Source of the DNA: Planctomycetota bacterium
Lineage (GTDB): Bacteria > Planctomycetota > Planctomycetia > Pirellulales > PLA5
Direction of reading: 5' to 3'
Length of the DNA: 32,668 bases
Assembly (NCBI GenBank): GCA_003576845.1
Contig: QEVJ01000060.1
Span: 1 to 32,668, forward strand
Shown: positions 9,103 through 29,063 of the stretch, piece after piece
How positions within the stretch are numbered: the stretch's first letter is position 1
Layout of the letters: each line of letters starts with the position of its first letter
Position numbers and translations under genes: made by a program
Notes under the pieces: generated by a model
What the model saw: only the letters and a program-made list of their open reading frames with translations
What the model was told of the DNA's origin: nothing
The model's database searches: none

Positions 9103-9143
9103 CGATCGATCAGAGATGAGCGATGAGTGAAGCGCATCGCTGC

Positions 9144-9191
9144 TGCCCACTGCCCACTTCTCCTGCCCACTTCCCCCCGCCCACTGCCCAC
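9144..9191 (+). repeat. Degenerate 7-base tandem array abutting hemB start
   Basis: Units of the form tgcccac occur at 9144-9150, 9151-9157, 9164-9170 and 9185-9191, with variants ttccccc (9171) and cgcccac (9178); one 6-base spacer breaks phase at 9158. The array stops one base before the hemB ATG at 9193, so the usual Shine-Dalgarno position is pyrimidine-rich repeat. Immediately upstream (9103-9130) is another loosely 7-periodic stretch rich in gatgag. Confidence 0.8.
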
Positions 9192-9192
9192 G

Positions 9193-10197
9193 ATGTCCAC
9201 GCCTAACCTCGGCTTTCCGACGACTCGCCTTCGCCGCTTGCGGTACAACCCCGCCGTGCGGCGACTCGTGCGCGAAACGCAGCTTGCGCCGGGCGATTTC
9301 ATCTTGCCGCTGTTCGTTCGGCCGGGCAAAGGCGAGCGCCGGGAGATCGCCTCGATGCCGGGCCACGCCCAGTTGTCGCCCGACATGATCGCCGCCGAAG
9401 CGGAGGAAGCGGCGAAGCTCGGACTCGGCGGCATCATCCTGTTCGGCATCCCGGAGCATAAAGACGCCCTCGGCAGCGATTCGTATTCCGACGACGGGAT
9501 CGTGCAACACGGCATTCGCGCCGCAAAGGCCGCCGCACCGGACTTGCTCTGCGTGACCGATGTCTGCTTCTGCGAGTACACCGACCACGGGCATTGCGGC
9601 GTGCTCGACCGCTCGACCGGCCGCATGGACGTGAACAACGACGCGACCCTTGAACTGCTGGCCAAGCAAGCGGCCAGCCACGCGCGGGCCGGCGCCGACA
9701 TGATCGCACCGAGCGGCATGATGGACGGCATGGTCGGAGCGATTCGCCGCGGTCTCGACGCCGCCGGGTTCGCCCACGTGCCGATCGTGAGCTATGCCGC
9801 GAAGTACGCGAGTGCCTTCTACGGTCCCTTCCGCGACGCGGCCGAGAGCACGCCGCAAGCCGGCGACCGCCGCGGCTATCAAATGGACGCGGCCGCCGCG
9901 GCCGAGCAGGCGATCCGCGAAGTGCAACTCGATCTCGACGAAGGCGCCGACATCGTCATGGTCAAACCGGCGCTGGCGTATCTCGACGTCATCGCCCGCG
10001 TGCGAGCGGCGTTCCCGGGCGTGCCGCTCGCGGCGTATAACGTCTCCGGCGAATACAGCATGGTTAAGGCCGCGGCGGCAAGAGGCTGGCTCGACGAACG
10101 GGCCGTCGCCCTCGAAATGCTCACAGCCATCAAGCGCGCCGGCGCAGGGATCGTGCTGACGTACTGGGCGAAGGACGTGGCGCGGTGGCTGGCGTAG
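9193..10197 (+). CDS. hemB: Delta-aminolevulinic acid dehydratase (porphobilinogen synthase)
   Basis: This enzyme condenses two 5-aminolevulinate molecules into porphobilinogen, the first common step of tetrapyrrole (haem) synthesis in the cytoplasm. The product is 334 residues, the usual HemB size, from the ATG at 9193. A longer reading from 9127 would translate a simple repeat and was rejected. The protein begins with the typical RLRRLRYNP segment. The zinc-site cysteines are present in [16 protein letters not shown] (Cys125, Cys127, Cys135). The two active-site lysines that form Schiff bases are Lys204 ([15 protein letters not shown]) and Lys258 ([10 protein letters not shown]). The C-terminal [11 protein letters not shown] and LTYWAKD segments are also typical. 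It therefore looks like a functional zinc-type HemB. No other haem genes are adjacent, and there is no recognisable Shine-Dalgarno. Confidence 0.97.
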
Positions 10198-10201
10198 TGC
10201 T

Positions 10202-10389
10202 TCACCACAGAGGACACCGAGGGCACGGAGAAGCGGCGATGAAAATAATGAATGATGACTGATGAACGACAAGTGATGAACAATCCATACGGTGCGAGCA
10301 TTTTTTTGCTCATCGTTCATCGCTCATTCGTCATCAATCATCACTCATCACTTGCATTTCCTCTGTGCCCTCGGTGTCCTCTGTGGTGA
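10202..10389. repeat. Composite inverted repeat: 9-base-period ends enclosing 7-base-period arrays
   Basis: The outer 25 bases at 10202-10226 (starting tcaccacagaggacaccg) are matched perfectly, in inverse orientation, by 10365-10389. Within each end the sequence has a 9-base period (cacagagga / caccgaggg). Inside the ends are 7-base arrays: aNtgatg-type units at 10244-10285, and on the other side catcgtt, catcgct, cattcgt, catcaat, catcact, catcact at 10311-10352. A small hairpin (gagca/tgctc around a T run) lies at 10296-10311. The element fills most of the gap between hemB and the radical SAM gene. Confidence 0.85.
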
Positions 10390-10411
10390 GGCAATCGGGC
10401 CGCCGTTCTGC

Positions 10412-10455: not shown

Positions 10456-11907
10456 ATGTTCTACACGCTCAAAATGGCCAAACGCCTGCTTCTCGAAACC
10501 GACAAGCGGCTATTGTGGAAGCTGGCTTGGAACGTGGGTTTCAAGGGAATGCGCTCGGTGCAAAAACACAAGGCGAGGCTGCGGCGGGGCGAGTTCTTTC
10601 CGCCCTTCCTGTACGTGTCGGTCATCAATAGCTGCAACCTCCGCTGCCAGGGGTGCTGGGTCGACGTGGCCGCCAAGCAGCAGACGATCGACGCCGCCGC
10701 GATGCACCGGATGATCGACGAAGCCCAGGCGATGGGCAACGCCTTCTTCGGCATCCTGGGCGGCGAGCCGTTCATGCACCCCGAGCTGCTCGACATTCTC
10801 GAACAACATCCCGACTGCTACTTCCAGATCTTTACCAACGGACAGTTCATCACCGACGAAGTGGCGGCCCGGATGCGCCGCATGGGCAACGTCACGCCGC
10901 TCGTGAGCATCGAAGGCAACGAAATCATTTCCGACGAGCGCCGCGGCCGCGGCGGCGTGTGGAGCAAGTCGATGCAGGGCGTCGAAAATTGCTTGAAGCA
11001 CCGCGTAATGACCGGCGTTTGCACGAGCCTCTGCCAGACGAACATCGACGACTTGCTCACCGAAAAGTGGCTCGATCGGCTCATCGAAATGGGCGTGATG
11101 TACGCCTGGTTTCACATCTATCGCCCCGTCGGTCCAGACCCGCGCCCGGAACTCGCGCTCACGCCGGAGCAGCAACTTCGGGCGCGGAAGTTCGTCGTCG
11201 AGATGCGCGCCAAAAAGCCGATCGTCATCATCGACGCTTATTACGATGGCGACGGCAAAGCCCTCTGCCCCGCCGCGACTGGTTTCACGCACCACATCGG
11301 CCCTTGGGGCGATATCGAGCCGTGTCCGATTATTCAGTTGGCGAAAGAGTCGATTTACGACACGGCGGAATCTGACGCGAATGCCCCGACCGTAGGTCAG
11401 GCCAAGCGGCCAGGCGACTTGCCATTATCGCAAACCCCAACCCGCGCCGGCCTGACGGAACATTCCAAAGACGCAACGGGCGCCGCGCATTACCGCGAGG
11501 GTGCCACTGCTGGCTCGTCCAGCAGTGCCGTCCCAACGGTTGCCGAGGCGCATTACCGCCCGCTCGCCGAGACCTTCAACAACTCGCAATTCCTCCGCGA
11601 GTTCCGCGAAATCGCCGCCGCATCGAGCCGGGGCTGCATCGTCCTCGAACGCCCGGACTTGCTCCACGAGCTAGCCGTCCTCCACGACGCCCGCGACACA
11701 ACGGCCCGCAAAACATCGCTCGCCGAACTCGCCGCCATGCAGCACCGCCCCAGTCAGTCGAGCCAGTCGGAGCAAGTCCCGGAGAAGAATTGGTATTACT
11801 GGTTCGCGAAGCGGTATTTTTTCAACGATTTCGGGGCGTACGATACGCCGCGGGTCAGTGCGTTGCGCCAGCGTATCGCGACAAAGCAGATGCCAGCGAC
11901 GCCATAA
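10456..11907 (+). CDS. Radical SAM protein with repeat-derived insertion
   Basis: This 483-residue protein has the radical SAM 4Fe-4S motif CNLRCQGC (Cys60, Cys64, Cys67) and the GGEP motif (102-105), followed by a TIM-barrel-like core. A later Cys-containing segment (ALCPAATGFTHHIGPWGDIEPCP) resembles the SPASM/auxiliary-cluster-type C-terminal regions of this superfamily. The substrate cannot be told from sequence. Residues about 310-368 look unlike the rest: they are encoded by short dispersed repeats (11392-11457 and 11485-11559) that keep the frame open. After them the conserved-looking sequence resumes (RPLAETFNNSQFLREF). The C-terminus is aromatic and basic (NWYYWFAKRYFFNDFGAYD). The stop codon is followed after one base by the ATG of the acyltransferase gene, but the two genes differ strongly in base composition, so a functional link is doubtful. 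Confidence 0.9.
   Translation: MFYTLKMAKRLLLETDKRLLWKLAWNVGFKGMRSVQKHKARLRRGEFFPPFLYVSVINSCNLRCQGCWVDVAAKQQTIDAAAMHRMIDEAQAMGNAFFGILGGEPFMHPELLDILEQHPDCYFQIFTNGQFITDEVAARMRRMGNVTPLVSIEGNEIISDERRGRGGVWSKSMQGVENCLKHRVMTGVCTSLCQTNIDDLLTEKWLDRLIEMGVMYAWFHIYRPVGPDPRPELALTPEQQLRARKFVVEMRAKKPIVIIDAYYDGDGKALCPAATGFTHHIGPWGDIEPCPIIQLAKESIYDTAESDANAPTVGQAKRPGDLPLSQTPTRAGLTEHSKDATGAAHYREGATAGSSSSAVPTVAEAHYRPLAETFNNSQFLREFREIAAASSRGCIVLERPDLLHELAVLHDARDTTARKTSLAELAAMQHRPSQSSQSEQVPEKNWYYWFAKRYFFNDFGAYDTPRVSALRQRIATKQMPATP
11392..11457 (+). repeat. 66-base dispersed element, copy A (inside radical SAM gene)
   Basis: The left 19 bases (gtaggtcaggccaagcggc) and the right 14 bases (gcgccggcctgacg) are identical to those of the element at 17276-17341. 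Both copies enclose exactly 33 bases, but the cores are unrelated. The ends contain a short inverted repeat, gtcaggcc/ggcctgac. At 66 bases it adds 22 codons without shifting frame. Confidence 0.85.
11485..11559 (+). repeat. Palindromic insertion bounded by a 12-base direct repeat (inside radical SAM gene)
   Basis: The 12-mer gcgcattaccgc occurs at 11485-11496 and again at 11548-11559, exactly 63 bases apart. Between them is the palindrome cactgctgg (11505-11513) / ccagcagtg (11519-11527). The translation shows the duplicated residues AHYR on each side of a Gly/Ala/Ser-rich segment. This is what a target duplication, or a duplicated short segment, would leave. Confidence 0.8.
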
Positions 11908-14440: not shown

Positions 14441-14796
14441 GTCGATTACTTAAGCACAGAGGCCCCAGCGCGGCCGGTGGCCGCAACCAAAAACGAGAAT
14501 GGTTCGTTAAACGCAGAGGACGCAGAGGGCGCAGAGGTGGCGCAGAGTAGATTCCATGAGAACTCATCGACGCTTGGCGCCTCAGGAAACTGCAAGGTAC
14601 ACGTCTCGCGACAAACCATCGCCGTCCCCTCTGCCCTTCCTCCGCGTCCTCTGCGTCCTCCGCGTTTAACGAACACGCCCAAATCTTCGCAAGTATGCAA
14701 AATCCTCCGCGTTTGTAGTACAGAGGACGAGCACAGAGGGGCACGGCGACAATGCAAGTGATGAATGGTGATTGATGAGCGATGATTGATGACCTA
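14441..14796. repeat. Repeat-filled gap between phosphatase and HD gene
   Basis: No gene is supported in 14424-14904. The gap begins with gtcgattacttaa (14441-14453), which recurs in inverse orientation at 26460-26472. An inverted repeat spans 14502-14674: gttcgttaaacgc plus 9-base units (cgcagagga, cgcagaggg) on the left, matched on the right by gcgtttaacgaac and ctctgcgtcct-type units. A third block at 14718-14796 resembles one half of the 10202-10389 element: cagagg/gcac sequence, then aatgcaagtgatg and 7-base units agtgatg, aatggtg, attgatg, agcgatg, attgatg (14757-14791). Confidence 0.8.
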
Positions 14797-14904
14797 ATTG
14801 GAGTGTGAACTTGCAAGCGGCACTAGCGATCCTCGCCTACACGGTGCTAGCGTCCTCCGCGTAATCGCCGGCCCTGTTCGCGACGCACATGCTGAGTTGC
14901 GGGG

Positions 14905-17275: not shown

Positions 17276-17341
17276 GTAGGTCAGGCCAAGCGGCAAAGAA
17301 CTCCACCATCCTAAATCGACTCTCCCCGCGCCGGCCTGACG
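17276..17341 (+). repeat. 66-base dispersed element, copy B (intergenic between mscL and lnt)
   Basis: It shares its first 19 and last 14 bases exactly with the copy inside the radical SAM gene (11392-11457), around an unrelated 33-base core. More gtcagg/cctgac fragments follow downstream (for example cctgcctgacgg near 17366), so the gap 17163-17451 is mostly repeat sequence. I see no gene in it. Confidence 0.85.
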
Positions 17342-28959: not shown

Positions 28960-29063
28960 CCTATCCCGAAACCGGAATATGTAGGAGGCGAATCCCTTCG
29001 CCGATAGGCCCGGTTAGCGATTCTATCGGCGAAGGGATTCGCCTCTTACAGTTCTGGGATAGG
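28960..29063. terminator. Long hairpin between convergent genes
   Basis: Arms 28981-29007 (gtaggaggcgaatcccttcg...) and 29023-29049 match at 26 of 27 bases in inverse orientation around a 15-base loop. Outer arms cctatccc (28960-28967) and gggatagg (29056-29063) extend the structure. It lies between the convergent membrane/spermidine-synthase and acyl-CoA synthetase genes and could end transcription from both sides. Its form also resembles a mobile palindromic element. Confidence 0.7.

Follow-up and report, generated by a model that had tools for sequence, protein, structure and literature searches.

The stretch of DNA analysed here (the window, 32,668 nucleotides in full) carries on its forward strand, at 10456-11907, a gene for a radical SAM protein, an open reading frame of 483 amino acids with a Pfam Radical_SAM domain at residues 54-188 (E 5e-15). 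The gene upstream of it (9127-10197) is hemB (porphobilinogen synthase)-like in appearance, and the weak NCBIfam matches of the radical SAM protein include the heme-pathway enzymes NirJ, AhbC and AhbD, all far under the cut-off; judging from these similarities, a heme-related role of the protein is possible. The gene holds an insert of residues 304-367 (11365-11556, + strand), delimited by orthologue alignments and by an AlphaFold2 model. Along this region follow, all on the + strand, a GTAG-headed dispersed REP-like repeat of 66 nt (element A, 11392-11457, read as VGQAKRPGDLPLSQTPTRAGLT), the first copy of the exact 12-base direct repeat GCGCATTACCGC (11485-11496), the left half of a 90-bp REPIN (element B, 11499-11527, where GGGTGCCACTGCTGGCTCGTCCAGCAGTG with flanking bases is read as GATAGSSSSA), and the second copy of the direct repeat (11548-11559). 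A previous reading of this DNA, made from the sequence alone, had placed the two repeat segments correctly, element A to the exact base, and had rightly described the reading frame as open through both.

In regard to the origin of the insert, orthologues were searched for in 57 genomes of the order, comprising the window genome and 56 relatives, and close ones were present in about half of them, with 40-92% identity across residues 1-303. Many of these show the two matching segments adjoining, or nearly so, in the DNA, with query residues 304-367 skipped. According to the aligned translations, these residues are missing from every orthologue with a readable junction (more than 30, taken from the relatives' genomes, from named planctomycetes and from one genome labelled Verrucomicrobiales), and only a few show 3 or 4 extra residues at that point. 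The sequence-only reading had predicted that orthologues would lack residues of about 310-360, as they indeed do, and the contrary case that it named, the segment conserved in distant orthologues, did not occur among these more than 30 junctions. The most informative comparison comes from the sister species of the same genus (G001), where DRAEPAGNGSVNGDEPHYRPLAE, a 17-residue linker, stands in place of the 64 residues of the window. This linker contains the HYRP codons once, as predicted for an orthologue, and neither element A nor element B. The insert thus amounts to 64 residues when measured against the orthologues of the order and to about 47 against the sister species. The proposed in-frame growth holds; its proposed size of about 43 residues (22 + 21) was too small. 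About 17 residues of the insert are non-repeat linker that was already present in the sister species. Since the sister lacks both inserts, the simplest order of events would be that the short linker came first, and that A and B were added on the branch of the window genome after its split from the sister. The sister assembly also holds two fragments of the radical SAM gene, 96.6% identical, which end on contigs 213 (L107) and 65 (L108) and represent either a strain mixture or a recent duplicate.

The AlphaFold2 model has a pLDDT of 70-94 for most of the protein and below 50, all coil, for residues 304-364, and the insert is therefore predicted to sit in a disordered loop, in agreement with the loop position foreseen in the previous reading. 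Compared with the sister species, dN is about 0.035 for residues 1-303 and 0.105 after the insert, at a dS of about 1.1, which is above 1 and near saturation, giving a dN/dS of about 0.03-0.08. Given such low dN against dS, the gene looks functional, and its parts flanking the insert appear to be under strong purifying selection. These values bear on the possibility that the locus is an assembly chimera or a dead gene. The genome, of which the window is contig 4, is indeed a 7.05-Mb draft in 289 contigs, with many repeats able to break contigs, but both flanks of the insert lie on one contig and in one gene, the frame is intact across 483 codons, the dN/dS to the sister is that of a maintained gene, and similar in-frame cases are found in other genes and in another genome. 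We give almost no credence to a chimera or a dead gene.

Both segments have relatives elsewhere in the genome, as had been claimed for two different repeat elements. For element A, the two-arm pattern GTCAGGCCAAGCGG-N24-34-CGCGCCGGCCTGAC has 66 matches in the genome (66 exact-arm copies), while the reversed pattern has none. The window copy shows 74-100% identity to 53 copies, 40 or more other places in the genome match it at 75-91%, and across its full 66 nt it is 91% identical to copies elsewhere in the genome and has the ends specific to the family. GTAGGTCAGGCCAAGCGGC is retained at the 5′ ends of the copies and CCCGCGCCGGCCTGAC(A/G) at their 3′ ends, the middle being variable. The element folds as GTAG, an 8-bp stem, a mismatched bulge and then a 4-bp stem. 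Its GTAG head is 97-100% conserved per position among 36 aligned copies, which, together with the imperfect palindrome, agrees with the definition of GTAG REPs. However, 74 of 83 copies are 65/66 nt long, beyond the 20-40 nt of GTAG REPs, and element A is therefore called only REP-like. Some copies are arranged as inverted pairs about 90 bp apart. Roughly one copy in two has a length in multiples of three, and of the six reading phases about half, on average, contain no stop codon. The second copy of element A in the window (17276-17341, + strand) is intergenic, between lnt-like and mscL-like genes.

Element B is built around a 23-bp palindrome with perfect arms (11505-11527), found at 92 sites in the genome and at none in the reversed control. 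The second segment had been described as a palindromic segment with 63-base spacing; the palindrome was confirmed, but only about 29 nt (11499-11527), not all 63, belong to the dispersed family. The full element of 90 bp consists of GGGTGCCACTGCTGGCTTGTCCAGCAGTG, 32 nt and CACTGCTGGACAAGCCAGCAGTGGCACCC, with the halves inverted so that the whole forms a near-perfect single hairpin, and its 90-nt consensus folds at -46 kcal/mol (z -12). There are 36 such inverted pairs, mostly 32 nt apart. In the radical SAM gene only half a REPIN is present, and the 3′ remainder (11528-11547) shows no clear family match. Because the consensus starts with GGGTGC and has no GTAG head at its 5′ end, element B was filed as RAYT-associated REPIN-type and not as a GTAG REP; it may correspond to the TIR type (PMC3733652).

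With the donor families at hand, we consider it very probable that the insert arose when non-autonomous mobile repeats of the REP type entered, in two separate in-frame events, a single tolerant surface loop of a radical SAM enzyme that remained in working order. The protein growth by small mobile repeats suggested previously is thus borne out by orthologues without the segment, by the single codon copy in the sister and by the predicted disorder of the loop. Alternatively, ordinary slippage and tandem duplication could have enlarged the loop, any likeness to dispersed repeats being incidental or secondary. Such an origin would agree with the existence of the 12-base direct repeat and with a loop that was variable in the genus beforehand, but slippage does not bring in dispersed repeats, and here element A is 91% identical over 66 nt to genomic copies and the palindrome of B is an exact family member. 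Slippage can account at most for the 12-base repeat and the residual linker, and as an explanation of the insert it is quite improbable.

As to the mobility of element B, four Y1_Tnp genes were found in the window genome. RAYT transposases belong to the Y1, HUH-type enzymes. Those on contigs 70, 26 and 185 each have their own palindromic or inverted repeats, and the fourth gene is an IS200-type transposase. The contig-70 RAYT has two inverted CACTGGTGG palindromes, both upstream, that differ from B by one base per arm. Its relatives in four other genomes (G021, G015, G013 and G046; 48-54% identity) are bracketed by inverted B-type palindromes, which flank both sides of the RAYT or overlap its end in L219, L249, L290, L293 and L295, while one B-type palindrome lies near the RAYT in L210. 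Since B-type palindromes bracket the relatives of the contig-70 RAYT, element B can be classed from this gene context as a RAYT-associated REPIN, despite the missing GTAG head. No RAYT bracketed by element A was found, and in this draft assembly A does not occur at any of the four Y1_Tnp loci. Two further observations concern the same genes. On contig 54 (L142, 262-982), four CACTGGTGG-type palindromes, the REP type of the contig-70 RAYT, form two inverted pairs within 720 bp. The window itself contains, at 28980-29050 between convergent genes, the inverted pair TGTAGGAGGCGAATCCCTTCGCCGATAG / CTATCGGCGAAGGGATTCGCCTCTTACA, which looks like the REPIN of the contig-26 RAYT, as a closely similar palindrome flanks that Y1 transposase gene (L115).

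The 12-base direct repeat had been interpreted as a target duplication. The repeat itself is exact: its copies lie 63 bases apart, with 51 nt between them, and where the second copy lies the sister has a single equivalent, CCGCACTATCGT. By this comparison the second copy, formed by the codons of AHYRP, is the ancestral one and the first is the added one. A repeat of such length is moderately rare by chance, being reached in 28 of 20,000 codon shuffles of the region and in 3% of 143-nt slices of the window. If it were a target duplication, the second element could be a MITE-type insertion made by a DDE transposase, a view that draws on the exact repeat around the second segment and its single equivalent in the sister. 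On the other hand, at 83 A copies and 34 paired B copies flanking repeats were no commoner than in shuffled flanks, by which a target-site duplication of constant length, the MITE criterion, was ruled out for both families; B-type palindromes bracket Y1 (RAYT) genes; and the 51 nt between the repeats exceed a REP half. We accord very little weight to a MITE-type insertion. The 12-base repeat is thus not the target-site duplication of the family, and it is private to the radical SAM site. Mobilisation of REPs by a Y1 (RAYT) transposase should produce no target duplication, and the absence of one fits REP elements of this kind. RAYT action nevertheless leaves the 12-base repeat unexplained, which counts against insertion of mobile REP-type repeats, the explanation that we prefer, as do the incomplete REPIN with its unmatched 3′ remainder, the lack of a RAYT bracketed by element A and the draft state of the genome.

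Further cases of in-gene insertion were sought in 669 kb of the window genome picked around copies, under a strict test that required a codon-scored gene on both sides of the element. By this test, in-gene copies were 1 of 83 for A, 0 of 36 for paired B and 2 of 32 for solo B palindromes, while 64% of random 65-bp positions in the same 669 kb had codon-scored genes on both sides. A third solo B, in a GH2-like gene, was missed by the strict codon scoring and found by inspection at a looser threshold. Genes with in-frame inserts are thus three, encoding the radical SAM protein, PriA and the GH2-like protein; a further candidate (L148) was dropped, its element lying upstream of the likely start codon. 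In PriA, CACTGGTGGCTTGCCCACCAGTG is read as GTGGLPTSA in a loop missing from most orthologues, and the PriA of the sister has a longer insert in the same loop, starting with the similar GGTGGCACTGGT. In the GH2-like protein, RTAGQASSG lies in a loop that varies in length among orthologues. The GH2-like gene of another genome (G029, L198) has a different palindrome, CCCTCTCCCCTCGCGGGAGAGGG, near the codons before PLNEIRRLSR, in the same loop as the B-type palindrome of the window genome. If insertion were uniform, frame alone would pass roughly one quarter of coding insertions. As far fewer are seen, either most in-frame insertions are also removed or insertion favours intergenic DNA.

Insertions of this kind recur in G021, a genome from a different family of the same order, with 201 B-type palindromes. 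Within 60 stretches (343 kb) around its copies, 12 of 96 elements are in frame in codon-scored genes, while 66% of random positions are coding. The host genes encode MnmE, UvrA (its identity confirmed by NCBIfam), PurQ, an Lhr helicase, a sugar ABC ATPase, a UbiA-type prenyltransferase, an H4MPT-linked protein, a PQQ protein, a subtilase and a TPR protein, and, as it looks from similarity, also the counterpart of the GH2-like gene. The PriA gene of G021 holds a complete REPIN, in the loop that also carries the PriA insert of the window genome, and brings the number of genes to about 13. One more candidate (L221) was dropped, its element being upstream of the likely start codon. In MnmE (L243, 2001-2126), a whole REPIN of 42 codons immediately follows the DTAG motif, within the switch II region; that this tRNA-modification GTPase should tolerate an insert there is surprising.

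The common element of G021 measures 126 nt between its terminal inverted repeats in 35 of 44 copies, and 35 of the 44 contain a stop-free frame. Most copies of the REPIN preserve a length in multiples of three together with the open frame SSFKT..EPTSG-ATASSSSSA-..-ALLGKPAV-AP..GFETA. Of the 44 copies, 35-36 are open in each of three phases and 18 in a fourth. The seven codon-scored copies inside genes nevertheless all have one orientation and phase, PriA being an eighth whole in-gene REPIN; if open phases are taken as equally likely, a single phase in seven of seven would arise by chance with (35/129)^7, about 1 in 10,000. The third palindrome phase, rich in Cys and Trp, is used by no accepted in-gene copy in the window genome or G021. 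The single reading phase of the surviving whole copies suggests that selection acts on the peptide and not on the DNA alone. It is doubtful, yet worth considering, that certain Planctomycetota harbour a RAYT-driven REPIN that has turned into a mobile element compatible with coding, one that continually supplies flexible loops to unrelated and even essential proteins while selection acts on the peptide it encodes.

The restricted set of reading phases among in-gene copies could also mean that the radical SAM insert was co-opted as a useful loop, for example in partner binding, and kept by positive selection. The repeated use of the same loops, of PriA in the window genome and G021 and of the GH2-like protein in the window genome and, with another palindrome, in G029, would be in line with this. 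However, the insert is predicted to be disordered, the host genes are unrelated, and the phase restriction is expected from the purging of harmful peptides alone, which makes co-option improbable. Under the favoured explanation by insertion of mobile repeats, the RAYT would move single-stranded hairpins in trans, and nearly all insertions in genes would be purged by selection. The rare survivors would be those combining a length in multiples of three, a stop-free phase for a flexible peptide and a site in an unstructured loop; the surviving phase of B would provide the small residues Gly, Ala, Ser and Thr. No new function would be required, neutrality or near-neutrality being the most likely state of the insert.

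Repeats inside genes are already known from several systems. Di Nocera et al. (2013, PMC3733652) described intragenic GTAG/CGTC REPs, single or as dimers, contained entirely in ORFs, where they lengthen the protein by 20-30 or more residues, with hosts that include DNA repair genes (UvrA, UvrB and the recB product); most copies were intergenic, and loops were proposed as tolerant sites. The same study reported REP families in Planctomycetes and, for the verrucomicrobium Opitutus terrae, many copies within genes. The palindromic repeats of the window genome likewise occur inside genes and at loop sites while most copies are intergenic. They differ in that two unrelated families share one radical SAM loop, with an intermediate in the sister species, and in that element B has no GTAG head. 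The phase restriction and the repeated use of a loop across lineages, shown with orthologues, go beyond that study. The classic case of in-gene palindromes is that of the Rickettsia palindromic elements (RPEs), dispersed repeats of about 150 bp that have entered many unrelated protein genes in frame, each of the repeats having an open frame (PMC10969869). In-frame insertion in unrelated genes is shared with our three cases in the window genome and about 13 in the sampled part of G021, and the 126-nt REPIN is close in size, the likeness being one of manner of working alone. Here, however, the phylum is a different one, B is grouped with RAYT-linked REPINs, and in-gene copies are rare in the window genome. 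REPINs themselves are inverted pairs of REP palindromes that form one long hairpin and are present in many copies, with the same palindrome on the flanks of the RAYT gene (Bertels and Rainey 2011, PMC3116915; TnpAREP, PMC8266576). Element B resembles them in its inverted pairs, high copy number, location mostly outside genes and same-type palindromes at RAYT genes. REPINs were described as extragenic (PMC3116915; PMC8266576), whereas some copies here form part of proteins. Element A departs from usual REPs of 20-40 nt by its 65/66 nt and by having no RAYT beside it in the loci seen.

Intragenic REPs and RPEs are thus already known, while the orthologue proof with an intermediate, the two families in one loop, the PriA loop shared across lineages and the single phase of whole REPINs are new here. 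The way in which new protein segments originate is usually inferred from old events. Since one can see in this case the donor families with the probable mover of one family, the ancestral site without insert and the sister intermediate, the lengthening of proteins by mobile DNA becomes directly testable. In-gene REPs are also extended to Planctomycetota with orthologue evidence, and PriA illustrates how one loop is used by such elements in different lineages.

Repeats of other kinds are found in the remainder of the window. Positions 1-2700 contain repeats at a spacing of about 315-324 bp (families D1, D2, D4 and D10), and this periodicity suggests that the region may encode a large protein built from domains of about 105 residues. 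At 10187-10404 and 14502-14674 lie mostly intergenic inverted repeats, whose arms measure 44-46 nt and are rich in CACAGAGG/CGCAGAGG motifs. ATGA-rich tracts adjoin these inverted repeats and recur at 14739-14797.
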